Origin: a virus
Strand: one strand, 5' to 3'
IMG/VR virus record: IMGVR_UViG_3300020021_000022
Location: 1 to 42,209 of that record
Length of the DNA: 42,209 nucleotides
Part shown: one piece after another, positions 2 to 42,209 of the stretch
How positions within the stretch are numbered: the stretch's first letter is position 1
Layout of the letters: every line of letters begins with the position of its first letter
Program-made: the position numbers and the translations under genes
The notes under the pieces: model-generated
Database searches by the model: none
What the model was told of the DNA's origin: nothing
What the model saw: the letters and a program-made list of their open reading frames with translations, nothing else

Positions 2-2749
2 ATCCCGAACAACACAGCGACCACCGGGACCTGGGCGACTGACGACCTGACCGTAACCAACGACGGCATCATCATGCCAGTCGGTCACACGCTTCCCCCG
101 AACGGTCAAGGCCTCGCGGGTCCGTACTTCTCGCGGCTCTACACCTGGGTTGGAAACCGGCTCTATTACACCCCACCAGGTCAACCGCAGTACTGGAACA
201 CGGATCCGGCCGTGGGCGATTGGGTCGATGTCGGCACGTGGGGCGAACAAATCATGTGGGTCACCACCCACACGAACGTCCTCATGATCTACAAGGAAAA
301 GTCGATCTGGCGACTCATTGCGGATCCGGTTGGCGGTTCGCTCGAGCAGCTCGAAGACGGCGTGGGCCTCTGCAACGCTTTTGCGATCGCATCGGCAGCC
401 GGGCCGATCGACTACTTCGTCTCCCCGTCCGGACTCCGGCGCTGCAACCTCGACAAGTCGGAAGCATTCGGTGCGGAGATTCTCCCGCTGTTCAACACGC
501 CAATTGTGAACGGCGGGACACCGTTCGAGCCACCCGGGAGCATTCTCGCTGGTCCCAATATCGGCGCTAACTCACTCGATGCCTTTGCAATTTCAGTTGG
601 CTACGCGATGGGCAAGCTGTACCTCTCGTACAGCGAGAACGTCACGAGCGGCGCGAACGCGGTCACTGCGGTTTATTCCGAAGCCACCGGCCGCTGGATG
701 TATCACCGCAACGGCAACACGACCATGCGGTTTTGGGGCTACTACTTCGATGGCGTGCTGATGCTCGGTTTGAGCGGGAATTCCTCCGGCGGCGCCACGG
801 CCACCGGCGTGAATCTCGATGATTTCAGGCTCTTCTACACCGAAGATGAAGCGGTCCCGGGCTCCGGACCTCACGCTCCGATCGAGTGTATCTATCGCAG
901 CCACGCGGAAGACGCTGGCCACCCCGACAACCCGAAGGTCTGGCTCGAAGTGGTCATTGACTGCAAACTCGGTCCCGGGATCGTGGCGACGGTCAAGGGA
1001 GCCTATGACAACTCCGTGGGCATGGGCACGCTCGGCACCATCACCGGTACCGGCTTCCGAAACTCGACCAGCTTCGTACTCGGTACCGACGGTACCGAGG
1101 CGAAGAATATCTCCATCGGCCTCGATGTCTTGAGCACCGCGACGAGCGGTCTGACTGAGATTCACAACGTTTATCTGTACTACTACTTGGAAGCCAGAAA
1201 CGCGCTCGCAGCTTCCACGATTCCGCTCGACCTCGGTTCCGTGCACGTCAAGGAGTGCAAAGAAATCGCGCTCGATATTGCCGCGGCCTCGGCCGTCAAC
1301 TGCAATCTCTATTCCGACCTCCCGGGTAACGCGCTCGCGATTCGGCACACCCCGTCCGTTCTCACTTCCGCCGGGCGCGCACTGCTGAAGTTCCCTTTCG
1401 CGACCACCGAAGGATATCTCTGGCGCCTGGCGCTCACTGCAACCACCACCACCACGTTCCGGCTCTACGGTGCGCGCCTCCTCATGCGGATCATCGGCAC
1501 GTACATCGAGGCGTACGAAGCCGCGGCCGGCTTTGTCTGGGACTCGATGGAAATGACCTACGAATCCGGGCTTACCCACATCCCGCGAAGTTATGCGATA
1601 GCACTCGCAGCCGTCCCGGTTAAAGAGTTTCGCGAGATCTCACTCGAACTCGACACGTTCAACGCGAACGTCACCCTCACATTCCTGACCGATCTCCCGG
1701 GCAACTCCGAGGCATCCCGCTTTACAGCCACGATCAACACCGGAACCGCGGGCCGGCGTATCTTGCGCTTGCCGATGGCGACGGGCCTCACCGCTCCGAT
1801 TGAGGGCCGCATCTGCCGGGTGAAGTTATCCGGGTCAAGCAAGTTCGTTCTTTATGACGGCGGGGTGGAAGTGCTGGCGATCGGAGTCTACATCGAGGCT
1901 TACGAAGCGACCGGCGGCGCCGTGTACGACTCCCGCGAGATCGACTTCGGCAGCGCGAAGCCCAAGGAAGCGCGAGAGATCGAAATCGATTGCCAGACCA
2001 CTGGCAACGTGACCGCGACGCTCTACTGCGATTTGCCCGGGTTCACGATGGCCTCGATCTTTACGGCAACCTTTTCCACCACGGGCCGGCAAAAGATCAA
2101 GCTCCCCACCACGATGAGCACGGCTCCGTTCAATTACCCGATGGGCCGCATGTTCCGGCTCATCATCAGCGGGACCAGCGCGTTCCGGCTGTACAGCGCG
2201 AAGCTCAAAATCCGCGAGTTCGGCACGTATCTCACCGGCGACGAGGCGAGCGCTTCACCCGTGGGTATCTGGGACTCGACGCCGATCGACCTCGACACCG
2301 AACGGATGAAGGAGTTCCGGAAGTTCGAGTTTGATATCCAGACCGACACCGGCGGTACCGCAACCATGAAGGTCTGGACTGATCAACCGAACGGCGCGCT
2401 GACTCTCCAGTTCACGACCACGATTACGACCACCGGCAGCCGGCAGACGGTGAAGATTCCGCTCACCCCGGGTATCCGCGGCCGACTGCTGCAAGTCGAG
2501 ATCTCCGGATCTGGCGTGCGCCTGTTCACGGGACGCATCTGGTACCGACCACTCAACGAACTCAATAAGGCGATGGGTGATTGGAAGTGGGCGCCCTTGC
2601 CCATCGAACCCACACCACCTACCTGGGCCTGGGCTCCGTTCACTGTTCCGCCTACGGAGGCGCAATGGTTTTGGGCCAAGATCCTCTCGATCGAAGGCAC
2701 TGAATCGACCTGGACTTGGATTGACGTGCCATTCGAGGTAACCGGATGA
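2..2749 (+). CDS. Neck/tail-hub-like virion protein with four tandem repeats, 5' partial
   Basis: The reading frame is open to the left edge, so the gene starts upstream; the first ATG inside the window is at 74. The N-terminal third (about residues 1-250 counted from 74) is rich in short beta strands with Trp/Tyr and resembles the propeller-type hub, nozzle or DNA-stabilisation proteins of podoviruses; this is a resemblance by eye, not a firm match. From about base 1228 to 2550 there are four tandem repeats of 105-115 residues. Each has a KE-x(2)-EI strand, a phrase like LYSDLPGN and, in three, an ending like GTYIEAYEA followed by WDS or YDS, suggesting stacked beta-sandwich modules. The last 50 residues are Trp-rich, with four WxW pairs spaced 12-15 residues apart. 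The next gene overlaps the stop by 4 bases. A structural role is likely; the exact one is uncertain. Confidence 0.6.
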   Translation: MPNNTATTGTWATDDLTVTNDGIIMPVGHTLPPNGQGLAGPYFSRLYTWVGNRLYYTPPGQPQYWNTDPAVGDWVDVGTWGEQIMWVTTHTNVLMIYKEKSIWRLIADPVGGSLEQLEDGVGLCNAFAIASAAGPIDYFVSPSGLRRCNLDKSEAFGAEILPLFNTPIVNGGTPFEPPGSILAGPNIGANSLDAFAISVGYAMGKLYLSYSENVTSGANAVTAVYSEATGRWMYHRNGNTTMRFWGYYFDGVLMLGLSGNSSGGATATGVNLDDFRLFYTEDEAVPGSGPHAPIECIYRSHAEDAGHPDNPKVWLEVVIDCKLGPGIVATVKGAYDNSVGMGTLGTITGTGFRNSTSFVLGTDGTEAKNISIGLDVLSTATSGLTEIHNVYLYYYLEARNALAASTIPLDLGSVHVKECKEIALDIAAASAVNCNLYSDLPGNALAIRHTPSVLTSAGRALLKFPFATTEGYLWRLALTATTTTTFRLYGARLLMRIIGTYIEAYEAAAGFVWDSMEMTYESGLTHIPRSYAIALAAVPVKEFREISLELDTFNANVTLTFLTDLPGNSEASRFTATINTGTAGRRILRLPMATGLTAPIEGRICRVKLSGSSKFVLYDGGVEVLAIGVYIEAYEATGGAVYDSREIDFGSAKPKEAREIEIDCQTTGNVTATLYCDLPGFTMASIFTATFSTTGRQKIKLPTTMSTAPFNYPMGRMFRLIISGTSAFRLYSAKLKIREFGTYLTGDEASASPVGIWDSTPIDLDTERMKEFRKFEFDIQTDTGGTATMKVWTDQPNGALTLQFTTTITTTGSRQTVKIPLTPGIRGRLLQVEISGSGVRLFTGRIWYRPLNELNKAMGDWKWAPLPIEPTPPTWAWAPFTVPPTEAQWFWAKILSIEGTESTWTWIDVPFEVTG

Positions 2750-4116: not shown

Positions 4117-4713
4117 ATGGCTGTAAATTTCAACGACTCTACTCCCGCGGCGCCTGGTGGACATACCAATGTTCAATGGCAAAAAGACTCGATGGGCAAC
4201 GTGAGCGCGAATATCGTGAGCCCTGTTGCCGCATCGGGACCAGCGAACGAAGTACTCGCTACACCAGACGGCTCGACCGGCGCGGTAGGTCTTCGCGCTC
4301 TCGTAGCGGCGGATATTCCTTCTCTCGCTGAGTCGAAAATTACCGGGCTTGTGTCGGACCTCGCGGCAAAGGCTCCGCTCGCCTCGCCCGCTCTCACCGG
4401 CACGCCAACCGCACCCACCGCGGCGCCCGGGACGAACACAACGCAGCTCGCTACCACGGCGTTTGTCACGGCAGCAACCGGGGCAACGGCCGTTTCCTTC
4501 GCGGACAATGAAACTCCTTCGGGCACGGTGAACGGGTCGAATACCGCGTTTGTTTTGGCTCACACCCCTAGCCCCGCAGCGTCTTTGCAATTCTTCGTCA
4601 ATGGCGTGCTGCAAGTCGCCGGCGGGACTGATTACACGCTCGTGACGGCTACAGCCACTTTCGGCAGCGCACCGACCACTGGCGCGGTGCTGACGGCTTT
4701 CTACAGGTACTAA
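4117..4713 (+). CDS. Tail fibre protein with a lambdoid fibre repeat motif
   Basis: 198 residues, ATG start 4 bases after the upstream stop. Residues 94-118 contain the phrase TGTPTAPTAAPGTNTTQ followed by an ATTAFV element, a hallmark of side-tail-fibre repeats in many phages. Before it is a linker-like region with DGSTGAVGLRALVAADIPSL, another phrase common in fibres. The C-terminal 70 residues repeat the domain at the end of the protein encoded at 2746-3111 (NGSNTAF, SLQFFVNGVLQ, final FYRY). It probably forms part of an elongated trimeric fibre. Unlike several neighbours it has no signal peptide. Confidence 0.75.
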   Translation: MAVNFNDSTPAAPGGHTNVQWQKDSMGNVSANIVSPVAASGPANEVLATPDGSTGAVGLRALVAADIPSLAESKITGLVSDLAAKAPLASPALTGTPTAPTAAPGTNTTQLATTAFVTAATGATAVSFADNETPSGTVNGSNTAFVLAHTPSPAASLQFFVNGVLQVAGGTDYTLVTATATFGSAPTTGAVLTAFYRY

Positions 4714-4715
4714 CT

Positions 4716-5327
4716 ATGAAGAACAACAAGACAGAGCTCATCACAGTAGTTTTTCTCACTGCGGTCGGTCTGATGGCCGCAACCGCGGGGCGGATTTCCT
4801 GGACGCAGATCCTTTCGACCGACCGGCACGGGACCGCGGCAAAGGGCCAAAGCTCGGACGGCACCGGCACCAGCGGCAACGTCGCGAAGTTCGACTCGGG
4901 CGGCAACGTGTCGGACGGCGGAGTCGCTGCGTCGACAGTGATCAGCCTCGGAAGCCTCAGCGGGACATCGCCGATCGTCTACAACTCCGGCACCGGGGCT
5001 TTCTCTTGCCCGACGTGCGGGACGGGCAGCGGCAACGTTTCCGCGGTCGCCAACGGGACATCCGCGCTGGGGACGAGCGCGATCACGTCCGGAGCTTGCG
5101 CGAGCGTCGTAACGACCTCAGCGACTGGCGTGGCGACCACTGACAACGTGCAGGCTGATTTCAACGCCGACCCGACGAGCACCACGGGCTACTCGCCAAG
5201 CACCAGCGGGATGCTCACGATCATCAAATATCCGACCACGAACAACGTCAATTTCAAGGTCTGCAATAACACGGCGGCGAGCATCACGCCCGGGGCTGTC
5301 ACTTTGAATTGGAGAGTCGCCCGATGA
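4716..5327 (+). CDS. Fibre-like protein with an N-terminal signal anchor
   Basis: 203 residues, ATG 2 bases after the upstream stop. Residues 8-24 (LITVVFLTAVGLMAATA) form a hydrophobic helix after a charged start, so the protein has a membrane anchor or an uncleaved signal. The rest is a low-complexity Gly/Ser/Thr fibre-type sequence with phrases such as SPIVYNSGTGAFSC and a CPTC pair, similar to those in phage fibre proteins built from report-like repeats. The Cys pair would suit an oxidising compartment. It overlaps the next gene by 4 bases (ATGA). Whether the protein is in the virion or is exported by the infected cell cannot be told from sequence. Confidence 0.6.
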   Translation: MKNNKTELITVVFLTAVGLMAATAGRISWTQILSTDRHGTAAKGQSSDGTGTSGNVAKFDSGGNVSDGGVAASTVISLGSLSGTSPIVYNSGTGAFSCPTCGTGSGNVSAVANGTSALGTSAITSGACASVVTTSATGVATTDNVQADFNADPTSTTGYSPSTSGMLTIIKYPTTNNVNFKVCNNTAASITPGAVTLNWRVAR

Positions 5328-6277
5328 AACTCGCGAAACTGGCTCTCCTGTTATTGGCACTGCCCGCGATCCTGCCGGCGCAACACACTTACTGGCGGCT
5401 CATCACGACGAGTACGAGCAGCTCCTTTGCGATGGTGGGTCAGTGGACAAGCTTTGACAGTGGGAGCAGCACCATATCCACCGCGGGCGGCACTTCCTCT
5501 ACCAGCTCGGGGGCGTTTGGCGCGGCGAGCAACGCTTTCAACGGCACCACGAATTGCTCGACCTTTTGGCAGGCGGGCAACAACGGACTAACAGGGGAGT
5601 GGCTCGAATATCAGTTTGCCTCTCCGGTTTCGATTGACCATTTCGATCTAATTTACGGCTGCAATGGGGGGTATGGTTTGGTGGATTTCTCTTTGCAGTT
5701 CAGCGACAACAATTCGACGTGGACGACGCTCTACACCTACAACGGAGTTTCCTCGGGAGGCGTGGCGCCGTCCACTCAATCCTTCTCGGCAAGCAACGCT
5801 GTACCGACCTCCCCGGCCGTCTGGTGGCGTCTTTCTTTCAATCTCACCAGCGGGTGTGCCGGCATGAGTAGCTTGCTTTTCTACACCGGAGCGAACGCGA
5901 CCGGGTCGACCATCAACATGGCAGCCTTTGCGGCGCTGGCGACGACTTTCGGACCGGGTACCGCGGCAGACTTGGCTATTTCGACTCCGGGGCAGGCATG
6001 GGGCAGCGGGGGCAGTGGAACACGAACCGAAAACTGGACCTATGCGTTTAGCACACCGGTTTCACCCGGATCGATTCAGTTTTCGAACGCGAATATCGGT
6101 GGGTGCACGCAGGTAAACAACCTAGCCACGTCGTACAGTCTCGACAATGTCAGTTACACCACCACGGACACCTTTACCCCCACCTGGTCTGGAACTCAAA
6201 CCAAGACCTTTAACGTGACGGGCGGTCCCGTCGTGCCCAGCACTTCTCAGGCGGGCGCGTTTCTGGTGGGTCCGTAA
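5324..6277 (+). CDS. Secreted-type protein with discoidin (F5/8 type C)-like domains
   Basis: 317 residues from the ATG at 5324, which overlaps the upstream stop; an in-frame TTG 15 bases earlier is less likely. Residues 1-20 are a clear Sec signal peptide (Lys, long Leu/Ala core, cleavage near PAQ). Residues about 60-165 resemble an F5/8 type C carbohydrate-binding domain: an AFNG-type loop, GEWLEYQFASPVSIDHFDLI and SLQFSDNNSTWTTLYTY. A second, weaker copy follows in the C-terminal half (ENWTYAFSTPVS, SYSLDNVSYTT). Such domains bind cell-surface sugars. A role in surface binding fits the fibre gene context, but a signal peptide is odd for a virion protein. Confidence 0.65.
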   Translation: MKLAKLALLLLALPAILPAQHTYWRLITTSTSSSFAMVGQWTSFDSGSSTISTAGGTSSTSSGAFGAASNAFNGTTNCSTFWQAGNNGLTGEWLEYQFASPVSIDHFDLIYGCNGGYGLVDFSLQFSDNNSTWTTLYTYNGVSSGGVAPSTQSFSASNAVPTSPAVWWRLSFNLTSGCAGMSSLLFYTGANATGSTINMAAFAALATTFGPGTAADLAISTPGQAWGSGGSGTRTENWTYAFSTPVSPGSIQFSNANIGGCTQVNNLATSYSLDNVSYTTTDTFTPTWSGTQTKTFNVTGGPVVPSTSQAGAFLVGP

Positions 6278-11900: not shown

Positions 11901-14573
11901 CTCAACGAACATGGTCTTTATGCCGGCGCGTCGGACGAAACCGCCGTGCGGGAAATTACCGCGAAGATTGCGGCCGGAGTCCGCGGCCAGGTAGGGATGT
12001 CTTTAGGTGAGGCGCGGGATCTCATCGACACGTACTACACCGCACTCGCGAAAGAGTTCGACGTTTCGACGGCCGACCGCGTCCTACAATATGCAGACAG
12101 AGAAAGCAGGGGTACAGTCACCGATGCACGACGAAGAATTGAGTCGAGGGATCGAGTCGATGACGGAGGACGAGGAGTTTCGGCCGAAGTTCAGCGACGA
12201 TCACCTGCTGGAACCGGGCCCGTTACAGGCGGGCTTTCAAGCGTGGAGAGAGGGCGGGAAACAGGGCCTGACGAGGTTCCTCCTGGAGCAGGAGGCAAAG
12301 GCCCGGCGGAATTCGCAACAGACGCCGATCGACGGGGAGATGACGCCCTCAAGCGATTCCTAGGCGACGAGACCGGCTCTTCCAAAGTAGGAGCAATCTT
12401 CAAAGCCGACATCAAGGACATGCGCGCCTTGATAGCGAAACGCGAAGCTGCTGCAGAAGCCCTCAAAAAAGCGAAAGCCGATCCGGTTGGCGAAAGAGCC
12501 GGCAACGAACTCGCTGAATACTATCTGGCCGAACGCGATCTGTGGGCGACACGAGTCAACCAGGTGATTGGACGCCTGCGCAGAATGGTAGCGGATACCG
12601 TCGACCAGGAAGCTCTTTCTATTCTGAGAGACTTCACGCACCGACCCAAGTTCGAATTGCCGGCATGGTTGAACGGTACACACCCAGTCCTCAAGGACCT
12701 CGACAAGCCGAAACGCGAAGCTGTAACGAAAAAGCTCGAGCTGTTGCGGCCGTCGATCGAGCGGGCCATGAATCCAACGCCTCGGATGAAGGCGGTTAAC
12801 GACGTTCTTACCCAGATTGCGGAGGCCTCCGGCAAAGAAGCCGAACACCGCGGCATGATACCGAAGGGCCTCGATCCGCAGCGCTACTTCAGCCACTTAC
12901 TCAACCCGAAAGGGGAGGGCGAGGTTGCGCAGTCGCTCGGAGAGCGTATCGGAAAAGCAATGGGCGGCCGGCTTGGGAAGAATTACGCCTTCGCTGCACA
13001 CAGGTCTTATCCCACGGTGCTCGACGCGATCGCGGACAACGTTGTGCCGAAGACGCTCAACGTGTTCGATGCATTCACCATCCACGGCGACAAATTCGCC
13101 ACCTCGCGAGCCACCCACCTGCTGCTGGACCGGCTGCACGATAGTGGCATGGGGATCTGGGACTCCATGAAAGGCGGGGACAAACTTCCGGAGGGTTGGG
13201 TCAAGCTCGCACCGCACTCGACGGAATTCCATAACGAAATTCCGATAACGGATTCAGAGGGAGAACCGCAAGTAGTCAACCAGGCGCTTTGGGTCCATCC
13301 CGCGGTTTCGAAGGCCATGCGCCCGATCACGGATCCCGACTACATGCACGTGGTGAGAGGGTTTACCGGGCTGCGTGGCTGGCAGGCGCTGATGAAACAG
13401 GCGCAGCTCAGCATGTCGATGTTCCACGCTCGAGCGCTCAATATTATGGCATTGGGCAACATGGGGCCAACTGGTTGGGTGAAGGCGCTGCGGGCAGACC
13501 GTTTCAGTCCGACGTTCGAGCGCGGCGAGCGGGACATGGTGATTCACGGGGGAACCAGCCCGATCCAAGGTAAGAGCGTCGAGGCGTACCAGTCGCTTGA
13601 GCCGGGCTCAATTCCGACCTGGACAGAGATTTGGCGGCGCGCACCAGGCCTGCACCAGATGGACACGGCCGCTAAGGCGATCTCAGAACTGACGTTCAAC
13701 AACCTGCAGCGCCGGTTCAAAGTGACCGACTACATGATTCATTCCTCGGAGTGGATGGCGGATCATCCGGACGCCTCGGCCGAAGAAGTCGACACCGCAA
13801 AGCGAAGCATTGCAAAGGAAATCAACGCCGTATACGGCGGCCTGAACTGGGAGCGCTTGGGCATCAACCACGCGACACTCGAGGTTGCGAGAGCAATCAT
13901 GCTGGCGCCCGACTGGACGTTCTCGAACCTGTTCAATGTGAAGTACGCGATGGAAAAGGGAACGCCGGCCGGCAGGCTCGCCCGTGCGTTCTGGCTGAGG
14001 ACGGTTGTCGGTGGATTGATCGCAACGCAGCTCATGAGCTACTTGTTGAGCCGGAAGCCATCGAAGAAACTGACGCAGGTCTACGCCGGAAAAGACAAGA
14101 AGGGCGATGACGTTTATCAAAACATGTTCTTCGCCGGCGCGCCACAAGATGCAACCAGCGTGATCGACAACATCGCGGACTATGGCGCCGTCGTCGGGTT
14201 GTTCCGCACGATGGCAAACAAGACGGCACCCGGGCTGCACGTAGCAATGGATCTCGCGAAGATGGAAGACTTCATGGGACGGCCGATCGTCCAGAAGGGC
14301 ATGCACCCCATCGCCTCGACGGTGCGAGGGGGAATGTACGCCGCGAGGGGCGTTCTCCCTATTCCTTACAGCGTTCAAAACATGACGGACATGCTAATCG
14401 GTCCGGAAGCGAAGAAGTATGCAGCCTGGGAGATCCCGTCGACGCTGATCTCAGGCAATCCACCGCGCCACACGGCACCGAGCGGCCGGCGGATGACAAA
14501 ACACGGGTTAGTCGTGACTCACCCTAAGCCGTTACGCTCCATTTGGGAAGAAATCAAGACCGGAAAGCGTTGA
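8901..14573 (+). CDS. Giant polyvalent/ejection protein with DdrB/ParB-like domain
   Basis: 1890 residues, GTG start overlapping the previous stop. The N-terminus carries short repeats ELPQGFTLDA, ELPAGFTVDA and, near residue 230, ELPAGFKLDP. Residues about 440-640 match the DdrB-like ParB-superfamily domain known from phage and plasmid polyvalent proteins, with GPVIDTRGNVLGGNSRSMTL around residue 530 as the core motif. Around residue 964 is EELTHTRQ, at the place where polyvalent proteins may carry an HExxH metallopeptidase, but the first His is replaced by Glu. The C-terminal 600 residues are helical with one hydrophobic segment near residues 1699-1716. Such proteins are packaged and injected with the DNA, which agrees with the neighbouring genes. 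A second frame is open inside at 12124-12363. Confidence 0.7.
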   Translation: MATPVTELPQGFTLDAGPQATPQTELPAGFTVDAAPASAQPLADMAGNPPSFWDKITAPIREGQVGRALGLDTITEAAKKRDPSLQDDRLLRVDEALPANDQGIMHGAAQFASGLTTPENAAIMLGTSGLGAFEGMLGKAGLSKLASLGFSAQMIADGIASGPQFAKQVQAKDWAGARETMTKVALSAYLAKQGVQHAMTPEAPPSSFPAPEREYSSTGQEIGAQPAGSELPAGFKLDPIPATPGPGIKTPAPAPQLPSELLPQPDEVDQATTQAAQQFVTAATAPPPEPVAPEPQLQLAIPPIQQETPDAVTVEQPGQGARQEVQQEKTAAGPTIERPVSQPQQSQPTPAVDADAQGPVLVDPELQKLREDIALSPDLMGKGKLIAYAKLPPEVQAKVDRLAAGMMKPSAPETRAAQVRNGTAPAIAAPEPEPATGPAYGKPVNVAVPGEETSYPARYGIRELADVQPSHNGMTFEANPRYEYQNDRDYKNNPEISSLVADRSGPKFDPNYAASESPTAEHGGPVIDTRGNVLGGNSRSMTLGRVYESNPAAVEKYKTALRDRAASYGLTPEDIDRFKQPVMVRELSEQPNEAGAQRAITDFNKKGAAALAPAERAIADGRLLSRETVQSISAKLENVGEGSTLAQAMQGDNGAQIVDALVKDGVITQQERGGLVDERGLLTGEAKDRIAKMLVGRMFESPAQFQATPPELRNKLERVAPQVLRLEGRAGWSITPQVQEGLALLADVRSHGGRSLDDYLNQPDLAGEQKDYSPEAVGIARTLNNGPLKAARAFRQFANDEAISREGAPSTFFEPPTRGEAFQAAFGDTHGEFAQDLSVPYDRSKPRPRDAVFGQARWEVTPARRGRPPILRLNRQALDAVSDAIGRSAGGAKLKPEGAGFFAERIRSLSEDLLSKGAVGMDTARNLYGLAGAFESAADPQSGLIYHLSDRSIPLWRRAQILREELTHTRQGETSRSPEKAAAVRTAVMAHPAFAAARAKLNEHGLYAGASDETAVREITAKIAAGVRGQVGMSLGEARDLIDTYYTALAKEFDVSTADRVLQYADRESRGTVTDARRRIESRDRVDDGGRGVSAEVQRRSPAGTGPVTGGLSSVERGRETGPDEVPPGAGGKGPAEFATDADRRGDDALKRFLGDETGSSKVGAIFKADIKDMRALIAKREAAAEALKKAKADPVGERAGNELAEYYLAERDLWATRVNQVIGRLRRMVADTVDQEALSILRDFTHRPKFELPAWLNGTHPVLKDLDKPKREAVTKKLELLRPSIERAMNPTPRMKAVNDVLTQIAEASGKEAEHRGMIPKGLDPQRYFSHLLNPKGEGEVAQSLGERIGKAMGGRLGKNYAFAAHRSYPTVLDAIADNVVPKTLNVFDAFTIHGDKFATSRATHLLLDRLHDSGMGIWDSMKGGDKLPEGWVKLAPHSTEFHNEIPITDSEGEPQVVNQALWVHPAVSKAMRPITDPDYMHVVRGFTGLRGWQALMKQAQLSMSMFHARALNIMALGNMGPTGWVKALRADRFSPTFERGERDMVIHGGTSPIQGKSVEAYQSLEPGSIPTWTEIWRRAPGLHQMDTAAKAISELTFNNLQRRFKVTDYMIHSSEWMADHPDASAEEVDTAKRSIAKEINAVYGGLNWERLGINHATLEVARAIMLAPDWTFSNLFNVKYAMEKGTPAGRLARAFWLRTVVGGLIATQLMSYLLSRKPSKKLTQVYAGKDKKGDDVYQNMFFAGAPQDATSVIDNIADYGAVVGLFRTMANKTAPGLHVAMDLAKMEDFMGRPIVQKGMHPIASTVRGGMYAARGVLPIPYSVQNMTDMLIGPEAKKYAAWEIPSTLISGNPPRHTAPSGRRMTKHGLVVTHPKPLRSIWEEIKTGKR
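12124..12363 (+). CDS. Possible nested gene inside the giant protein gene
   Basis: 79 residues in another frame from that of the host gene (which has its codons starting at 8901). ATG 12124 has a possible ribosome binding site AGGGG at 12108-12112, 11 bases upstream. In this interval the nested frame has mostly G or C at third codon positions (about four in five by hand count) and an acidic, helical product (MHDEELSRGIESMTEDEEF). The host frame here has an even third-position mix and an Arg/Gly-rich linker. This could be an overlapping gene, or a pair of compensating frameshifts. Neither can be settled here. Confidence 0.4.
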   Translation: MHDEELSRGIESMTEDEEFRPKFSDDHLLEPGPLQAGFQAWREGGKQGLTRFLLEQEAKARRNSQQTPIDGEMTPSSDS

Positions 14574-17252: not shown

Positions 17253-17264
17253 TGTCGGATATCC
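17253..17264 (+). promoter_or_regulatory. Motif variant TGTCGGATATCC before the recombinase, site B
   Basis: Variant of the recurrent motif, one base different. It ends 4 bases before the ATG of the recombinase gene, and there is no ribosome binding site between. The geometry is that of a -10 element of a leaderless transcript. The site lies just downstream of the T-run of the terminator. Confidence 0.45.
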
Positions 17265-17268
17265 CCAT

Positions 17269-17862
17269 ATGAGAGCCGCAATCTATGCCCGCGTCAGCAC
17301 CAAGGACGGCCGGCAAGACACTGAGAACCAGCTTGCCCAACTTCGGAAATACGTCGAAGCCTCCGGATGGACCGCGGTAGAGTTCCTCGACCACGAGACC
17401 GGCAAGCATTCGAACCGGGCCGGCTTCCTCGAACTTTTCGCCGCGGCGAGTCGCAAGGAGTTCGATGTGGTCCTGGTCTGGGCGCTCGATCGCTTCAGTC
17501 GCGAGGGTATCGCGGAAACCTTCAACCACGTTTCTCGGCTCGCGAAGTTTGGCGTGAAGTTCGAGAGCCTCACAGAACCGCAGTTCCGGACCACTGACAA
17601 CGCGATGGGCGAACTCATGATGGCGATTGCTGCGTGGATAGCCAAACAGGAACGCGCACGCATCAGCGACCGCACAAGGGCCGGCTTGGCTACAGCGAGG
17701 TCAAAGGGTCGATGCGGCGGCCGTCCGATCGTAGTTTTTCGTCGCGACACGGCAGAAAAGCTGCGAATTGCCGGAAAAAGCTGGAGAGCGATCGGAATCG
17801 AGCTTGGCGTCCCTCAGTCCACGATTCGGCGCGTATTGAAAACACGTTCGAAAAGGGCCTGA
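17269..17862 (+). CDS. Serine recombinase, resolvase/invertase size
   Basis: 197 residues from the ATG at 17269; upstream in-frame codons run through the terminator and are unlikely to be translated. It begins with the resolvase signature IYARVSTKDG: Arg8 and the nucleophile Ser10. VLVWALDRFSREG (residues 68-80) carries the conserved Arg pair, then the long E-helix (KQERARISDRTRAGLATARS) and a C-terminal helix-turn-helix (GKSWRAIGIELGVPQST). All parts of a small serine recombinase are present and intact. Small members usually act as resolvases or DNA invertases rather than phage integrases, which have a large C-terminal part. It may be the integration or dimer-resolution enzyme, or invert a segment; no inverted repeats flanking a fibre gene were seen. 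Confidence 0.85.
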   Translation: MRAAIYARVSTKDGRQDTENQLAQLRKYVEASGWTAVEFLDHETGKHSNRAGFLELFAAASRKEFDVVLVWALDRFSREGIAETFNHVSRLAKFGVKFESLTEPQFRTTDNAMGELMMAIAAWIAKQERARISDRTRAGLATARSKGRCGGRPIVVFRRDTAEKLRIAGKSWRAIGIELGVPQSTIRRVLKTRSKRA

Positions 17863-25571: not shown

Positions 25572-25983
25572 GACCGAGACCAAGCGCCACATCATAGCGG
25601 CCGGCGTCGTGTCGGGCCAATCCACCGAAGATATCGCCAGGTCCGCGGGTTGCTCGGTGCGCCAGGTCCAGCGGATCGCGAGCGACATGGGGACGCAGCT
25701 CCTGATCACCGAAGCCTTCGCGCCTCACACCAAGAAGCTGGCGAAGCTTGCAACCCGGGTGCTGTACGTCATTGAAAAGGCGTTGCTCGCTCACAAGGAC
25801 GACAACGCGGACCACGCGACCAGGCTCAAAGCGGTGGAGCGGTATGGCGACGTCCTCGCGATGGCGCAAGGTAAGGCTCCGGAGACCACGGCCGAAGTGA
25901 AGACCCAGTTCACCTGGGAAGAGTTTCAAATCCTCTATCAATCCAGGAGAACTAATATTGAAACCGATCCGCCTCAGTCGTAA
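25561..25983 (+). CDS. Putative terminase small subunit
   Basis: 140 residues from TTG 25561, with GAGGG 9 bases upstream. Residues 19-42 are a helix-turn-helix (GQSTEDIARSAGCSVRQVQR). The rest is helical and charged (KLATRVLYVIEKALLAHKDD), in a layout common to small terminase subunits: an N-terminal DNA-binding domain and helices for oligomerisation. The large subunit gene lies 600 bases downstream, with a sigma-factor gene in between. The role is to recognise the packaging site and activate the large subunit. Confidence 0.6.
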   Translation: MARKTETKRHIIAAGVVSGQSTEDIARSAGCSVRQVQRIASDMGTQLLITEAFAPHTKKLAKLATRVLYVIEKALLAHKDDNADHATRLKAVERYGDVLAMAQGKAPETTAEVKTQFTWEEFQILYQSRRTNIETDPPQS

Positions 25984-26572
25984 AGCTTGGGGGAAGCGAG
26001 CAGTTAAAGCCCGGGAGAAGCTGGTCGCGGACCATACACCGAGGGTGAAGCAGATCGCGGAGCAGGTGCACCGCACCCTGACACATGTCGACCCGGAAGA
26101 CCTGGAGCAAGCCGGCTTCATCGGCTTGATGGAGGCCGCGGACCGGCACCAGCCCGGTAAAGGCAGCTTCGAGGCGTTCTCATTCTTCAGAATCCGTGGG
26201 GCCATGATCGACGCGCACAAGCGAAGCGCCTACCGCGACGATACCCATGCCTCGCTCGAAGAAACCATGGTCATCGACGGCCGCGGCGATAGTTATCCAC
26301 TGCCGAGGTTCACCCCGATCGACAACCGCCCGCTCGCTGACGCGATGGCAGCCAGGCGGGAGCAGGCGCGATTACTCAACGAAGCAGTCAACGAACTCGA
26401 ACCGGATGAGCGGCTGGTGTTCGTCGCTACGCTTCAAGGGATCGCACTTCTCACGACCGCTCAGAAGTGCGGGCACACAGTAGCTTGGGCACGGGCGAAG
26501 CTCGCTTCGGCGCGGTTGCAGCTGGGCGCCAAGGTGCACATGTGGGGCCTCGGATTAGACAAGACAGCATAG
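25958..26572 (+). CDS. Sigma-70-family factor encoded by the phage
   Basis: 204 residues from TTG 25958 with AGGAG 8 bases upstream, overlapping the previous gene by 26 bases. Region 2 is clear at residues 43-88: DPEDLEQAGFIGLMEAADRH, then PGKGSFEAFSFFRIRGAMID, which matches the FliA/SigB-type core-binding and -10-recognition segment. Residues about 139-195 look like region 4 (NELEPDERLVFVATLQGIAL and a final helix), but are less typical. Region 3 is short. It probably directs RNA polymerase to phage late promoters. Its place between the terminase genes is unusual. Confidence 0.8.
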   Translation: MKPIRLSRKAWGKRAVKAREKLVADHTPRVKQIAEQVHRTLTHVDPEDLEQAGFIGLMEAADRHQPGKGSFEAFSFFRIRGAMIDAHKRSAYRDDTHASLEETMVIDGRGDSYPLPRFTPIDNRPLADAMAARREQARLLNEAVNELEPDERLVFVATLQGIALLTTAQKCGHTVAWARAKLASARLQLGAKVHMWGLGLDKTA

Positions 26573-36323: not shown

Positions 36324-37244
36324 ATGTACATCAGACAGAGTTTTCCAGACCTTAACCTCGCGAGCATGTTGCCCGCGATCGATGAGGTAGTGATGGCCAA
36401 GTACACCCGCTTTCCCGATCAGTACAGCGAGGTTTTCCGCATGGAGACCTCCTCGCGCTCGATCGAGCAGACCACCGAGGTAACCGGTTTCGGCCAATTC
36501 AGTGTGGTCCCCGAAAACGACAAGACCGTCTATGACGATCCGCTACCCGGGTTCAACAAGACTTACATCCCCGCGCAGTATTCGCTTGGCTTCAAGGTCT
36601 CGCGCATTGCGCAGGACGATGACAAGTTCGGCGTGGTCCGCAAGCTCGCAAGTGAGCTTGGCAAAAGTGCCAAAGAGACTAAAGAGGTAACGTGCGCCTC
36701 GGTGTTCAACACCGGTTTCACGTCAGCCACTGGTCCCGATGGCAAAACACTCTTTGCCGTGGATCACCCGTTAGTCGGCGGCGGAGTGCAAACCAATCGG
36801 CTTGCATTCGCCACCGATCCCGATGTTACTTCGATCCAACTGGCGCTCACCACCATGCGTCAGACTGTCGACCACCGCGGCAAGAAGCTGCGCATCCCGC
36901 CTCGGAAGATGATCGTGCCTTCGCAGCTCGAATTCATCACGGCCGAATTGCTCGGCGGCAACGATCGTAGCGACACTTCGAACCGCGCTATCAACAGCTT
37001 TAAGCGTCGTTCCGGTATGCCTTCCTTCGAAAGTTGGATGGTGTGGGACTACTTAACCGACCCGGGCGCATGGTTCATCCAGGCGGAAAAAGAAGACACG
37101 GAACTGCGTCACTACGACCGCGAATCCTTTAACACGGTGCACGATGTCGAATTTGAAAGTCGCTCCGTAAAGACCGCCGGCTGGATGCGTTTTTCTGTCG
37201 GTTACAACGGCTTCTACGGCATCCTGGGCGTCCCTTCGAGCTAA
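36324..37244 (+). CDS. Major capsid protein
   Basis: 306 residues. It has the N-arm MYIRQSFPDLNLASMLPAID, an E-loop-like region (VVPENDKTVYDDPLPGFNKT) and the DHPLVGG phrase common in gpT-like or HK97-fold capsid proteins. It ends with GWMRFSVGYNGFYGILGVPS. Its length, its position after the decoration gene and its sequence features all support the call. Confidence 0.85.
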   Translation: MYIRQSFPDLNLASMLPAIDEVVMAKYTRFPDQYSEVFRMETSSRSIEQTTEVTGFGQFSVVPENDKTVYDDPLPGFNKTYIPAQYSLGFKVSRIAQDDDKFGVVRKLASELGKSAKETKEVTCASVFNTGFTSATGPDGKTLFAVDHPLVGGGVQTNRLAFATDPDVTSIQLALTTMRQTVDHRGKKLRIPPRKMIVPSQLEFITAELLGGNDRSDTSNRAINSFKRRSGMPSFESWMVWDYLTDPGAWFIQAEKEDTELRHYDRESFNTVHDVEFESRSVKTAGWMRFSVGYNGFYGILGVPSS

Positions 37245-37246
37245 CC

Positions 37247-37693
37247 ATGAGACGACTCCGACGCGGTTTCTCCAGCGTGATCGGCATCAGAGCAGAGACC
37301 TACGTTGACTCGTTTCTTGTCAACGCTGCCGACATCACGACCTCGCACAGCGCGCCCCTCGCGCTTGTCGCGGCTCCCGGGTTAAACAAAGCAATCCAGC
37401 TCACCCGGGCTATCGTCCAATTCCGCTACGGTACGGTGCAGTTCACCGGCGGCGGCGCGCTGTCCTTTGTCTATCACGGTGCAACCGTCAATCTGTTGAG
37501 CGGCACGGTAGCCGCTGCCACGATTCAGGCCGCGGCGAATGCCGTTGTCTCGCCTGGTGCGCAGGCAGCAGCCCTTGTGCTGACTCCCAATGTCGGTATC
37601 GACTGGTTGGCCGCAACCGCGGATTTCGCGGCCGGCGACTCGACGGCCGTGCTGACTCTCTTCTACACGGTGTACGAGCTGAAGCAGAACTAA
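37247..37693 (+). CDS. Unknown beta-rich virion protein
   Basis: 148 residues, ATG 3 bases after the capsid stop. The sequence alternates short Val/Ala/Thr strands (VQFRYGTVQFTGGGALSFVY) and Ala-rich stretches. Probably a head or neck completion protein by position. No family recognised. Confidence 0.55.
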   Translation: MRRLRRGFSSVIGIRAETYVDSFLVNAADITTSHSAPLALVAAPGLNKAIQLTRAIVQFRYGTVQFTGGGALSFVYHGATVNLLSGTVAAATIQAAANAVVSPGAQAAALVLTPNVGIDWLAATADFAAGDSTAVLTLFYTVYELKQN

Positions 37694-37694
37694 C

Positions 37695-38060
37695 ATGAGC
37701 GCAGTCCAGAAGACCATCCCCGTGTTGATCGCCTCCGGCACAGCACTATCGAACGGTGCGCTTCTCGGTGACCATGTTCTCGTTGGAATCCAGATGTCCG
37801 CGGCTTGGTCCGCGGCATCCCTCACCTTTCAAATTTCGTATGACCTCGGCGCGTCGTTTCATGATTTGTACGACGACTCCGGATCAGAAGTAACGCTCGC
37901 TCCCGCGGCTCCCGCGGGCAAGTACTTGCAGATTTCGCCCGATCCGTTCGGCGGAATCGTGCTCCTCAAGGTTCGCAGCGGCACAACCGGCACGCCGGTT
38001 AACCAGGCCGCGGACCGCAACTTGATTCTCACAACGCGCAAACTGTTCCCGATCAGGTAG
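37695..38060 (+). CDS. Unknown small beta-rich virion protein
   Basis: 121 residues, one base after the upstream stop. Patterns such as LGDHVLVGIQMSAAWSAASL, FQISYDLGASFHDLYDDSGS and a C-terminal LILTTRKLFPIR are like single-domain beta-sandwich proteins at phage necks or fibres. No enzymatic motif. Function unknown. Confidence 0.55.
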   Translation: MSAVQKTIPVLIASGTALSNGALLGDHVLVGIQMSAAWSAASLTFQISYDLGASFHDLYDDSGSEVTLAPAAPAGKYLQISPDPFGGIVLLKVRSGTTGTPVNQAADRNLILTTRKLFPIR

Positions 38061-38067
38061 ATACTTA

Positions 38068-39189
38068 ATGAAGAACATTTCCTTTGCGCTGGCAGCTCTG
38101 CTGACCAGCGCTTTTCTTTTTCCTGCCAACGCGCAGGTGTTCACGAACGCGACCAGGCTGAGGGGGAAAAACGTCTGCCCCACGGCTCCCACAAATGGGC
38201 AGGCCTTGGTGTGGAATTCAACCACCGGTTGTTGGGCGCCAGCCACGCCTAGCGGTGGAAGCGGTGCGTCGCCGGCGGGCAGCGATGGGGACGTACAGGT
38301 GAAGGCTGGAGCGGCGCTAGCGGCAGCCCCGATGAACTGCACTGGGGCAAGCTGCAAGATCGGGAGTACGGCACCTACGGGCCTTCCTAGCGGAAGTCTG
38401 GCGATGGAGGGTGCGTCCTATATGGCCAGCGGCAAGGTGTTCGTCAATGCTTCGGATACCGACCCCGCGGATTACACCGCTGCCAAGTCAGGAATCACGG
38501 TAGTAAATCAGGCGGGCGACGAGGTTATTAGAATCTGGGGAACAATGCCAGACGCCAGCGATGCCGGAGGCCTACCTTGTGGAACGTACTTCAATTGCAT
38601 GAACTTATATATTGGCTGGCACGCAGGATTTGGCCAGCCAGCGAACAACACAGAGGCAGGCTATCGAAACATGGGAATTGGAATTCAGGTGCTCAATGCC
38701 ATCACCAGTGGATTCGATAACTTTGGAATTGGGACTCAAGCTTTGTACAACCTCACCGAGGGTTCAGATAACCAGGCATATGGCTACCAAGTGCTTTATT
38801 CCGTGACTACCGGCCAAAGAAACACGGGTAACGGCAACTCTGCGCTGAAAGAAGCTACCGGAGATTCGAACACAGCAATGGGAGCCGCTGCCGGGCAGCA
38901 TGTAGCCGCAGGCAGCAACAACACTTTCCTGGGAGCGGATGCCGATGCATCAGGTTGCGGCTCTTGTCAAAACTCTGCCGGAATTGGTGCCAATGCTTCG
39001 GTTACTGTGAGCAATCGGATGGTCTTTGGCGACAGTAATGTGACAGATGTTTTTTTGGGATCGGAAACCGCCTTAGCCAAGGTTCACGCTGGCGGCGGTA
39101 CCGCTACGAAGCTCGCCTGCTGGAAGTCGGACGGAAAAACTCTAGGCTGGGCCACGATGACAGCGGGCGATATTTCCGCCTGCAACTAG
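38068..39189 (+). CDS. Signal-peptide-bearing adhesin/fibre with head repeats
   Basis: 373 residues. Residues 1-23 are a Sec signal peptide (KNISFALAALLTSAFLFPANAQ). Phage fibre phrases follow (NGQALVWNSTTGCWAP). Residues about 180-330 hold successive repeats of the type G-x-G-x-x-x-A-L with N-x-G (GIGTQALYNLTEGSDNQAYG, NTGNGNSALKEATGDSNTAM), like the beta-roll head of trimeric autotransporter adhesins. Several Cys are present (ADASGCGSCQNSAG). The C-terminus (KLACWKSDGKTLGWATMTAG) resembles ends of fibres. A secreted or surface-bound trimer is likely. Confidence 0.65.
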   Translation: MKNISFALAALLTSAFLFPANAQVFTNATRLRGKNVCPTAPTNGQALVWNSTTGCWAPATPSGGSGASPAGSDGDVQVKAGAALAAAPMNCTGASCKIGSTAPTGLPSGSLAMEGASYMASGKVFVNASDTDPADYTAAKSGITVVNQAGDEVIRIWGTMPDASDAGGLPCGTYFNCMNLYIGWHAGFGQPANNTEAGYRNMGIGIQVLNAITSGFDNFGIGTQALYNLTEGSDNQAYGYQVLYSVTTGQRNTGNGNSALKEATGDSNTAMGAAAGQHVAAGSNNTFLGADADASGCGSCQNSAGIGANASVTVSNRMVFGDSNVTDVFLGSETALAKVHAGGGTATKLACWKSDGKTLGWATMTAGDISACN

Positions 39190-39208
39190 GCACGCATTTC
39201 AAGCCATC

Positions 39209-40750
39209 ATGCTGCGTCTCATCCTCTTCGCGCTCCTCGCGCTCTTACCCTGCGTTGCGGAAGACCTGTACATCGGGCAGTCTTCAGCGGGCACGGGCGA
39301 CGGTTCAAATTGCAGCAACCAGCTGCCCTACACGTTCTTTAACAGCTCGGGAAACTGGGGCGCCGGCGCCGGCAAGATCAGCGCCGGGGATACTGTACAT
39401 ATTTGCAGTATCGTGACCGGCGGCCTCAACACAACGCTCTTGACGTTCCAGGGGAGCGGCTCAGCCGGAAACCCTGTAACCCTCCTCTTTGAAACAGATG
39501 CTGACTTGACGTCGCCGGCATGGGGCACGGGCGGGGCGATCGCGTGCACCGGCCAAAATTACATCACGATCGATGGTGGAACCAACGGCAAAATCGAGAA
39601 CACAGCGAACGGTACGCTACTCGCAAATCAGGTCGACTCACGGGCCGTCAACAGCGTAGGCTGTAGCAACCTTACGGTCCAGCATCTGACCGTCAGTAAT
39701 TTCTATTTGCGCGAGGAGGACAATACGACGGATGCCACGGACGCGGATTGCATTGCCGCGGACAGCTCCGACAACGTTCTCTTTACACACAACACCGTCG
39801 ACCACTGCCGCATCGGGCTCGCATTCACCAATTCAGCGGTTTCAACGACGCACTCTAACTTTGAGGCAAGCTTCAACACGCTCACGTTCGTTGAGCACGG
39901 GATGACGATCGCGGCCGGCTCAACCGGGGCTATCATCTCCGGCGTAAGTATTCACGACAACGATTTAGGCGGCGGGGCCTACCTTTGGGACTCGGGCTCG
40001 CCCAATATCTGGCACCACGACCCCATCCACATGTTCAGCCAGGCGTCCGGTTCCAGTGTGAATAGCGTTCAAATTTACAACAACTACTTCCACGGCGTCT
40101 GGAGTCGAGACTCCGGCTACGGCGGCACTCACATCACGGCTGAGATTTTTCTTGAACAGCTTGGTTCAGGTACAACGATCTTCAACAATATTTTCGACCT
40201 CACCCAAGGCACCGTGCTGAATCAGCCCGCAAACGGCGATGTGTTCTGCAAGGGTTCGGGGTCCGACAATTGTCGGGTCTATAACAACACCTTCGTGGAT
40301 GTAAGCGACTTCTCGGAGGGGTTTCAGTGCTCGTCAAACTCTGGCCATGACGTCCGCAACAACATTTTCTACAACACGGACGGGTTCTATGCACCCTCGG
40401 GCTGCACAATCGCGGCGTCGGACAATAACGATTTTTACCTGACGACCACATGGACGAACAACGGATCTTCGTTCAACAGCCTCTCCGGCTGGCAAACCGC
40501 AAGCGGGCTGGATGGTAATAGCATCGCTGCCTCTCCGCTTCTCAACCTGACTTCGTACCTGCTCGGTGCGGGATCCCCAGCGATCGCGATGGCGGCCAAC
40601 CTTACGTCGTTGAGCATCTCCCACCTTGGTACGGATAAGTCAGGCGTTTCCCGTCCTTCCTCCGGCCCTTGGGACGCAGGAGCGTACCAGGCTGTCCCGG
40701 CGTCAACCTCATCTTTCTATTCAGGAACGCTCAAGGGTTTTAGGAAGTAA
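39209..40750 (+). CDS. Signal-peptide-bearing right-handed beta-helix protein, tailspike-like
   Basis: 513 residues. Residues 1-17 are a short signal peptide (MLRLILFALLALLPCVAE). The rest has many parallel-beta-helix rungs: YITIDGGTNGKIENTANGTL, DNVLFTHNTVDHCRIGLAFT, SVQIYNNYFHGVWSRDSGYG, CRVYNNTFVDVSDFSEGFQC. This is the PbH1 or pectate-lyase-like fold used by phage tailspikes that bind or cut polysaccharides. No catalytic residues can be fixed from sequence alone. The C-terminal 40 residues are a short separate tail. Confidence 0.7.
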   Translation: MLRLILFALLALLPCVAEDLYIGQSSAGTGDGSNCSNQLPYTFFNSSGNWGAGAGKISAGDTVHICSIVTGGLNTTLLTFQGSGSAGNPVTLLFETDADLTSPAWGTGGAIACTGQNYITIDGGTNGKIENTANGTLLANQVDSRAVNSVGCSNLTVQHLTVSNFYLREEDNTTDATDADCIAADSSDNVLFTHNTVDHCRIGLAFTNSAVSTTHSNFEASFNTLTFVEHGMTIAAGSTGAIISGVSIHDNDLGGGAYLWDSGSPNIWHHDPIHMFSQASGSSVNSVQIYNNYFHGVWSRDSGYGGTHITAEIFLEQLGSGTTIFNNIFDLTQGTVLNQPANGDVFCKGSGSDNCRVYNNTFVDVSDFSEGFQCSSNSGHDVRNNIFYNTDGFYAPSGCTIAASDNNDFYLTTTWTNNGSSFNSLSGWQTASGLDGNSIAASPLLNLTSYLLGAGSPAIAMAANLTSLSISHLGTDKSGVSRPSSGPWDAGAYQAVPASTSSFYSGTLKGFRK

Positions 40751-40759
40751 GCGGCTGCT

Positions 40760-40771
40760 TGTCGAATAGCG
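40760..40771 (+). promoter_or_regulatory. Motif variant TGTCGAATAGCG, site E
   Basis: Variant with two differences in the 12 bases. It ends 4 bases before GTG 40776, the same geometry as sites B and C. A GAGG lies too close to the start (2 bases) to be a typical ribosome binding site. Confidence 0.4.
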
Positions 40772-40775
40772 AGGT

Positions 40776-41000
40776 GTGAAGCGTCTCATCGTCCTCGCCC
40801 TATTTCTCGCGCCTCTTCTCGGCGCGCAGGCCGTCATAACCCCGCACCTCGAAGGTATCGAGAGTCGGTACCCCTGCTGGTCAACCCAACGCCATAGGTG
40901 GGTCTGGTGCATCGTGAGCACCTCCGGCACCTGGACGGGCATTTTTGGAAGTTCGACGTGGACCGCGATCGCAGGAGTTAAAACGTGGAATCAACTGTAA
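40776..41000 (+). CDS. Small secreted-type protein
   Basis: 74 residues from GTG 40776. Residues 1-19 are a signal peptide (MKRLIVLALFLAPLLGAQA). The mature part is about 55 residues, Trp- and Ser-rich with two Cys (YPCWSTQRHRWVWCIVSTSG), probably a disulfide-bonded mini-domain. It overlaps the next gene by 16 bases. No family is recognised. Confidence 0.55.
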   Translation: MKRLIVLALFLAPLLGAQAVITPHLEGIESRYPCWSTQRHRWVWCIVSTSGTWTGIFGSSTWTAIAGVKTWNQL

Positions 41001-42187
41001 GACGAGCTTTACTACTGGTCGCGGTGTGCGCTTCTCTCGCCTCCGGACAGATCACTTTGTCAACAATCAATGCCGGCGATGCTGTCGTTTCGGTTTCACT
41101 CCCGGCGTTCAACGCCAATTTCGCGGCGCTGAATAGCAAGCAGATCATCGGAACCGGGGTACCAAGCAGCGGCCTTTGCACCATTGTTAGCGTGGGCTTC
41201 ACCTTCCACCGCTCCGATGCCGGCGCGGCGAATTCCTCGCTGTATCTCTGCGTCAAAAACACCGGCTCTACCTACGCCTGGGAAGGTCCCTTTTCCCAAA
41301 CCGGAGCGACTGGCGCGACTGGCGCGGCTGGCTCCGCGGGCGCAACTGGGGCAACCGGAGCCACGGGAGCCGGCGTAACCGTGACCACGAAGGGCGACCT
41401 CCAGGGGTTCTCGAGCACGTTCGCTCGCTTTCCCGTGGGAACAGATGGGCAGGTGGTGACGGCCGACTCCACGCAAGCGCTCGGGATCAAGTGGGCGACA
41501 CCTGGGGGCGGGACCATCCCACTCACCACGAAGGGCGATATATTCGGGTTTTCCACTCTTGGGGCGCGCCTTCCAGTCGGTACAGACGGTCAAACGATCG
41601 TTGCCGACTCAACGCAAGCGCTCGGGATCAAGTGGGCAACGCCGGCGGCCTCTGTTCTCACCACAAAGGGCGATCTTCAGGCGTTCTCAACCCTGGTTGC
41701 TCGCTTTCCAGTCGGAAGCAACGGGCAGGTAGTGACGGCCGATTCGACGCAGGCGCTCGGTGTCAAATGGGCCACACCAACCGCGGGAGCCACCACTTCC
41801 GGCGCGGCTAACATCGTGTGGGTGGCAGACGGCGCCGGCGGACTCACACCGACCGATTGCACCTGGGGCGGTACCGGGCAACCGCTTACGTGCGTTGGCG
41901 GCTTCGCTTCGAGCGGTCCCTTCCAGGCGGGCGGGCTGCATCAAAGTGCGGCGAGTCTGGCGACACCCGGGTCGGGCAGTCTGACGATGGTGTGGGACAC
42001 AGACCACGCCGACCGCTTGACCTATAAGGATTCGGCTAGCGTGCTCCATGCGGTTTCGGGTTCAGTCGCGGTCCCTGGCAGCTCCTCGGCGGCGTGCTCT
42101 CCCGGGCAATGGTCGGATGATTCCGGATTCCACTACGCGTGTGTGGCCACGAACACGTGGGTGCGCGTTGCGATGGCGACCTGGTAG
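40985..42187 (+). CDS. Collagen-like tail fibre with three fibre repeats and a signal peptide
   Basis: 400 residues. Residues 1-22 form a signal peptide (RRALLLVAVCASLASGQ). A beta-rich domain (25-100) is followed by a Gly-x-y stretch at about 105-128 (GATGATGAAGSAGATGATG), then three near-identical phage-fibre repeats of 37-40 residues starting TTKGD (134-173, 181-220, 226-265), with FPVGTDGQVVTADSTQALGI and KWATP. The C-terminal part has several Cys. Collagen-like and TTKGD repeats are typical of fibre shafts. The signal peptide makes it atypical. Confidence 0.75.
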   Translation: MESTVRRALLLVAVCASLASGQITLSTINAGDAVVSVSLPAFNANFAALNSKQIIGTGVPSSGLCTIVSVGFTFHRSDAGAANSSLYLCVKNTGSTYAWEGPFSQTGATGATGAAGSAGATGATGATGAGVTVTTKGDLQGFSSTFARFPVGTDGQVVTADSTQALGIKWATPGGGTIPLTTKGDIFGFSTLGARLPVGTDGQTIVADSTQALGIKWATPAASVLTTKGDLQAFSTLVARFPVGSNGQVVTADSTQALGVKWATPTAGATTSGAANIVWVADGAGGLTPTDCTWGGTGQPLTCVGGFASSGPFQAGGLHQSAASLATPGSGSLTMVWDTDHADRLTYKDSASVLHAVSGSVAVPGSSSAACSPGQWSDDSGFHYACVATNTWVRVAMATW

Positions 42188-42199
42188 GCAACTCACTTC

Positions 42200-42209
42200 A
42201 TGAAAAAAC
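42200..42209 (+). CDS. Start of a further gene, 3' partial
   Basis: The last bases read ATG AAA AAA C, 13 bases after the stop of the preceding gene. Met-Lys-Lys would again begin a signal peptide, but three codons are too few for a call. Confidence 0.25.

Follow-up and report, generated by a model that had tools for sequence, protein, structure and literature searches.

A variable slot of fibre-type proteins with predicted export signals between capsid and tail-adaptor genes in Bryobacterales phages

For tailed phages, the accepted site of fibre folding and assembly is the reducing cytoplasm. Export of a phage protein toward the host envelope is known from phage T5, in which Llp, a small exported lipoprotein, blocks the receptor and acts at the host envelope. 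The proteins described here would likewise be directed toward the envelope, but they are large fibres, almost all of them without a lipobox. Ordinary podovirus tailspikes and tail fibres resemble them in domain types, gene neighbourhood and modular N- and C-termini, but are made without signal peptides, and signal-less fibres with TTKGD repeats elsewhere have few Cys: among 11 TTKGD-repeat proteins counted in unrelated phages, the nine signal-less ones contain 0–5 Cys, and the two with signal peptides (from L106 and L105) contain 16 or more.

The nearest precedent is found in HTVC023P-type pelagiphages, which, together with pelagimyophages, encode curli (type VIII secretion), with proposed roles in superinfection defence and "sibling capture" (PMC9599517). 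In phage Melnitz, which also carries curli, no clumping was seen, and the authors proposed that the curli pores serve in the control of lysis (PMC9004378). The HTVC023P-type phages belong to the same capsid lineage as the clade analysed here, their capsids matching those of this clade, and in both cases phage-encoded fibres would be exported from the infected cell; here, however, collagen, beta-helix, CBM and discoidin fibres lie in a slot between capsid and adaptor genes, and no curli module was seen among the exported proteins. HTVC023P is also the only one of 12 distant relatives from other hosts with signal-peptide genes after the capsid gene, namely gp45 and gp46, which have even Cys numbers (4 and 2). 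These two genes of the cultured pelagiphage (L118, 15442–17517) are annotated only as hypothetical.

Two bacterial cases are also comparable. WceF of Pantoea stewartii has a tailspike fold, modifies the matrix and carries an export signal (PMC7949094), but its gene is bacterial, the signal is of the Tat type and the matrix on which it acts is the host's own. The Bryobacterales proteins of L120 and L121 share the signal peptide and the glycan-binding CBM5_12, with collagen-like repeats in other members, but have no phage neighbourhood and lack the NKM linker module. In the open-licence literature we found no report of exported or signal-peptide fibres in Acidobacteriota phages.

Genes with signal peptides in the window and in related phages

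The window, that is, the whole stretch of DNA that was analysed, is a linear virus record, 42,209 bases long. Signal peptides were scored by a home-made rule (not SignalP), which has one known type of false positive, the second head gene (MQNKALRRN...). The features of the window on which the argument depends are the following.

2..2749, + strand: large tail protein (GYxREKLQIL family), C-terminal part, 5′ end missing (comparison with relatives)
4117..4713, + strand: tail fibre gene without signal peptide, 0 Cys, internal contrast (signal-peptide score)
4716..5327, + strand: predicted exported fibre-type protein of the left block, 4 mature Cys (signal-peptide score, blastp)
5324..6277, + strand: predicted exported F5/8-type-C (discoidin) protein, 4 mature Cys (domain scan, signal-peptide score)
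36324..37244, + strand: major capsid protein, left anchor of the slot (Pfam/PHROG matches; 55 viral relatives)
37247..37693, + strand: small gene after the capsid gene, kept in close relatives (blastp to relatives)
37695..38060, + strand: second small gene after the capsid gene (blastp to relatives)
38068..39189, + strand: predicted exported fibre, SNA-LRGK N-terminal module, head repeats, 10 mature Cys (signal-peptide score, PHROG)
39209..40750, + strand: predicted exported beta-helix-type protein, choice-of-anchor-Q domain, 10 mature Cys (domain scan)
40776..41000, + strand: small predicted exported protein, 74 aa, 2 mature Cys (ORF, sequence)
40985..42187, + strand: predicted exported collagen-like/TTKGD-repeat fibre, phage tail-protein C-terminus, 6 mature Cys (Pfam, PHROG)
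42200..42209, + strand: frame ATG AAA AAA C, truncated, three codons only (ORF list)

As an earlier note on this DNA had claimed, the genes at 38068, 39209, 40776 and 40985 each open with a signal peptide of the Sec type, made up of a charged n-region, then a hydrophobic core, and a cleavage site with small residues. The ORF list and signal-peptide scoring give the N-termini as MKNISFALAALLTSAFLFPANA before QVF for 38068 (373 aa), MLRLILFALLALLPCVA before EDL for 39209 (513 aa), MKRLIVLALFLAPLLGAQA before VIT for 40776, which has a GTG start, and MESTVRRALLLVAVCASLASG before QIT for 40985 (400 aa), which also starts with GTG. The fibre elements ascribed to all four are found in three. Residues 188–294 of 38068, which has a homologue with a signal peptide in L003, match tail-spike/virion PHROGs; 39209 contains NNxF-type repeats and a choice-of-anchor-Q match above the cut-off; and 40985 has three TTKGD repeats in its sequence, a weak collagen match under the Pfam cut-off and a C-terminus that matches the phage tail protein phrog_17312. 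The 74-aa product of 40776 gave no family match and is too short for a fibre. A phmmer search of 39209 against PDB sequences gave no matches, and single-sequence AlphaFold models were too poor for use (mean pLDDT 31.7 for 39209 and 38.9 for 5324).

In the left block, 4716 and 5324 also carry Sec-type signal peptides, which brings the genes of this kind to six, the number given in the earlier note. The first has stretches homologous to signal-peptide fibres of L021 and L042, and the ATG of the second overlaps its stop codon (ATGA). The fibre-type genes 3111 and 4117 lack a signal peptide, so that in the window the trait belongs to a subset of the fibre-type genes. No signal-type start is seen in the tail protein (915 aa) that the left edge cuts, its true N-terminus being missing from the record.

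The capsid protein is common to 55 viral loci, at 50–87% identity, and to a prophage integrated in a chromosome of Bryobacterales (Acidobacteriota). The gene order in the relatives is capsid, two small genes, a variable slot with the exported fibres, adaptors (of the MTWG, MQLS and MDVAN types), large tail protein, second fibre block and giant protein. Since the window contains neither the adaptor genes nor the start of the tail protein, its two "blocks" are both sides of the tail module, cut by the ends of the record; the "second block" of the earlier note is partly an artefact of this cut. A 1890-aa protein with a ddrB-like ParB domain (8901–14573) is also conserved in the clade.

Slot contents were counted by hand in 37 deduplicated relatives with both slot borders. 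At least one signal-peptide gene is present in 28 of the 37, corresponding to 28 of 31 filled slots, while six slots contain no fibre-size gene and three (L007, L019 and L050) contain signal-less genes only, a result that counts against the explanation preferred below. Over the 4 kb that precede the capsid end, the same score picked out none of 204 head genes. Because no upstream head gene scores and the trait recurs across the clade, the signal peptides are not due to chance. The description of the trait as system-wide therefore applies to the clade, but in the window to a subset of genes. Three further clade members, found independently, fit the same pattern (L147 and L161 complete, L160 truncated at the 5′ end), and their fibres have six mature Cys each.

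The content of the slot changes rapidly, with 35 clusters among 48 proteins, and a scan of whole 38068 and 39209 against viral contigs found no relatives, which also indicates fast turnover. In L019 (rel. 675) and L050 (rel. 663) there are natural signal-less versions that begin exactly at the mature CPQGY module. A fibre family located between the adaptor genes occurs with and without a signal peptide (L053 6179–8596, L066 6735–9002, L076 12637–14739), with 11 Cys, an odd number, in the signal-less copy.

The capsid gene also occurs on five bacterial contigs, of which four come from Bryobacterales or Bryobacteraceae MAGs. The remaining one carries the label Streptosporangiaceae; its locus, L057, is very similar to the viral locus L008. 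On a 100 kb Bryobacterales contig, genes for a T6SS, an outer-membrane efflux protein, fumarase and cytochrome oxidase are found on both sides of the phage, which indicates that these phages integrate in a diderm. A serine recombinase at 17263–17862 (Resolvase E 5.9e-36) is consistent with a temperate phage.

Start codons and the GKCGAATA element

A conserved element precedes many genes of the clade. The first base of GKCGAATA lies exactly 15 bases before an ATG or GTG in 60 of its 115 plus-strand occurrences, compared with an average of 0.2 for scrambled 8-mers; the 7-base gap to the start codon is fixed, and a pyrimidine is present at −1 in 53 of the 60. It is found in clade loci such as L013 (rel. 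1022), L030 (rel. 1079) and L012 (rel. 1001), and also before unrelated genes (portal, adaptor and tail protein). In front of the MANPNN gene it lies at a distance of 33–35 bases, with a Shine-Dalgarno sequence in between. No −35 signal was found at GKCGAATA sites, and there was no enrichment before starts in 182 kb of one host genome or in the more distant members G010, G012, G014 and G015. In the window, the element and its possible partner are as follows.

40761..40768, + strand: GTCGAATA element (GKCGAATA type), 15 bases from its first base to the first base of the start codon (motif search)
25958..26572, + strand: sigma-70 region 2 protein, directly upstream of the terminase gene (domain scan)

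By its sequence context the element looks like a promoter giving leaderless mRNAs, and the sigma-70 region 2 protein, which 14 of 15 related records have as well, the prophage contig among them, is a candidate for its reader.

The element precedes 19 of 54 signal-peptide starts and none of 189 downstream in-frame starts. Shine-Dalgarno-like strings of at least four bases are also rarer downstream (28 of 189, compared with 17 of 54 at the signal-peptide starts). The pattern that the earlier note had named as refuting its proposal, conserved starts with strong ribosome binding sites downstream of the signal segment, was looked for, and the element was at none of the 189. Misannotation of the starts was rejected on these counts.

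Cleavage sites, cysteine parity and domain content

The n-region charge, hydrophobic core and small residues at −3/−1 are those of signal peptidase I substrates. In 34 of 55 cases the small-residue site is followed by Gln, a residue that the scoring itself favours. A lipobox with Cys at +1 gave only two chance-like matches in 56 sequences, none of them in the window, and lipoproteins of the Llp type were ruled out.

Proteins that fold in an oxidising space are expected to have their cysteines in pairs. Among signal-peptide proteins that are complete and have 150 aa or more, the Cys number of the mature part is even in 41, odd in three and zero in four. Related sequences are not independent, and the test was guarded against this by taking one representative per sequence cluster, which gave an even:odd ratio of 31:2 (p = 6.5e-8). 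The non-signal genes of the same loci gave 94:108 and 27:33, and the signal-less fibre-type genes of the same genomes 5:11. The even-Cys bias against controls of about 1:1 indirectly supports folding of the mature part outside the cytoplasm, and we regard export and disulphide folding of the slot fibres as well supported by these sequence comparisons. DsbA-like Thioredoxin_4 proteins, putative oxidases, are present in all eight host-order genomes; VKOR was found in only two of the eight, which counts against our explanation.

Scans of 56 exported proteins revealed CBM5_12, pectate-lyase/RHGA-type and other beta-helices, collagen repeats, F5/8 type C and GDSL domains, together with many tail-fibre PHROG matches, so that both fibre-type domains and homology to tail proteins are present. 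Of the domains that might make a polysaccharide depolymerase, a possibility raised in the earlier note, beta-helix and RHGA-type pectate-lyase matches are in some relatives and GDSL is in one, the window having choice-of-anchor-Q only. The slot fibres depart from the usual virion-fibre form, which is synthesised without an export signal. No curli family (CsgG/CsgF pore, CsgA/B repeats) was detected in Pfam/NCBIfam scans of the exported proteins, and a curli module was rejected. A recurrent N-terminal module, signal peptide-NKM-CBM, is found among viral contigs only in this clade. Bryobacterales chromosomes encode signal-peptide collagen/CBM5_12 proteins outside a phage context, but the matches cover the CBM part alone (profile positions from 48 on), without the signal-NKM-CBM architecture; a host origin of the NKM module was rejected on this ground.

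Clade-wide conservation, the start-codon evidence and the strong even-Cys bias support the suggestion of the earlier note that the phage exports adhesins.

Possible roles of the slot proteins

We propose, with a probability of about 0.7, that this clade of podovirus-like Bryobacterales phages carries, between its capsid and tail-adaptor genes, a cassette of changing content whose products are fibre/adhesin-type proteins exported by Sec. These sticky fibre proteins would probably have their place of action outside the infected cell and not be attached to virions in its cytoplasm. The sequences show the signal peptides, their true starts, their conservation across the clade, the paired Cys and the contrast to signal-less fibres; the late time of expression, the passage through Sec, the cleavage, the disulphide-bonded folding, the release and the role outside the cell are our interpretation. 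The slot proteins would be expressed together with the late genes, as their position suggests, and each would be targeted to Sec and then cut by signal peptidase I. The mature protein would fold in the periplasm with disulphide bonds and would then reach the outside by lysis or host secretion. There its domains (glycan-binding, beta-helix, GDSL-like or collagen-like) may act on the matrix and on the surfaces of the host or of neighbours; the protein might stick to the matrix or loosen it, capture neighbours, or occupy receptors that are left on debris. Two further observations count against this explanation: no outer-membrane export route was identified for the slot fibres, and tail-protein C-termini and head repeats are typical of virion proteins. 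Given export, we assign roughly three chances in five to a free or surface-bound accessory adhesin or enzyme as the final role, about three in ten to virion docking after lysis and about one in ten to something else.

These features of virion proteins could also mean that the products are receptor-binding virion fibres, which are exported to the periplasm for disulphide formation and trimerization and docked on tails when lysis mixes the compartments. We consider this a tentative alternative, less probable than the accessory role. It agrees with the position inside the morphogenesis cluster, with the match of the 40985 C-terminus to phage tail proteins and with the conserved N-terminal modules and variable C-termini; moreover, in L109, which has the same synteny, the slot is filled by a signal-less fibre, and one fibre family, with a shared N-terminal region of about 230–295 aa, has a signal peptide in L053 and L076 but none in L028. 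However, no single N-terminal anchor is common to all, the second block has separate signal-less fibre candidates, and CBM5_12 and choice-of-anchor-Q fit free exported proteins equally well. The broader claim that Acidobacteriota tailed phages export receptor-binding fibres, form periplasmic disulphides and complete their tails only at or after lysis, outside the cytoplasm, seems to us unlikely. Of the same order is the probability that the genes are captured host adhesins carried as cargo (morons), altering the surface of the lysogen or infected cell with no service to virion release or adsorption. The prophage state, the rapid turnover of the slot and the signal-peptide collagen/CBM5_12 proteins of host-order chromosomes would suit cargo of this kind, but the host matches only the CBM part of an architecture confined to this phage clade, and the fixed place in the late cluster speaks for a phage function.

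Shielding of the receptor, in which the fibres would occupy the receptor that the phage itself uses, on the producing cell or on debris, and so prevent superinfection or wasteful re-adsorption, is improbable. In its favour are the tail-protein-like C-termini of exported proteins, but a decoy of the same specificity should share a domain with a signal-less fibre of its genome, and in within-genome comparison no signal-peptide fibre does so. Most improbable of all is that the signal peptides are a start-codon artefact, with the true starts downstream, or uncleaved hydrophobic anchors. The heuristic scoring and the want of a clear Shine-Dalgarno sequence in some genes leave room for it, but the confinement of GKCGAATA to the signal-peptide starts, the coupling to upstream genes seen in 5324, the Gln after small-residue sites (with the scoring bias given above) and the even-Cys bias of the mature parts all argue against it.

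A whole soil-phage clade has fibre-type proteins with predicted export signals and paired Cys inside its structural cluster. The combination of a signal peptide and an even Cys count provides a search rule for exported fibres in phage genomes. If virions were finished outside the cytoplasm, this would be new. If free release is true, these phages would set free a sticky or matrix-active arsenal at lysis, which bears on the ecology of biofilms and soil aggregates.
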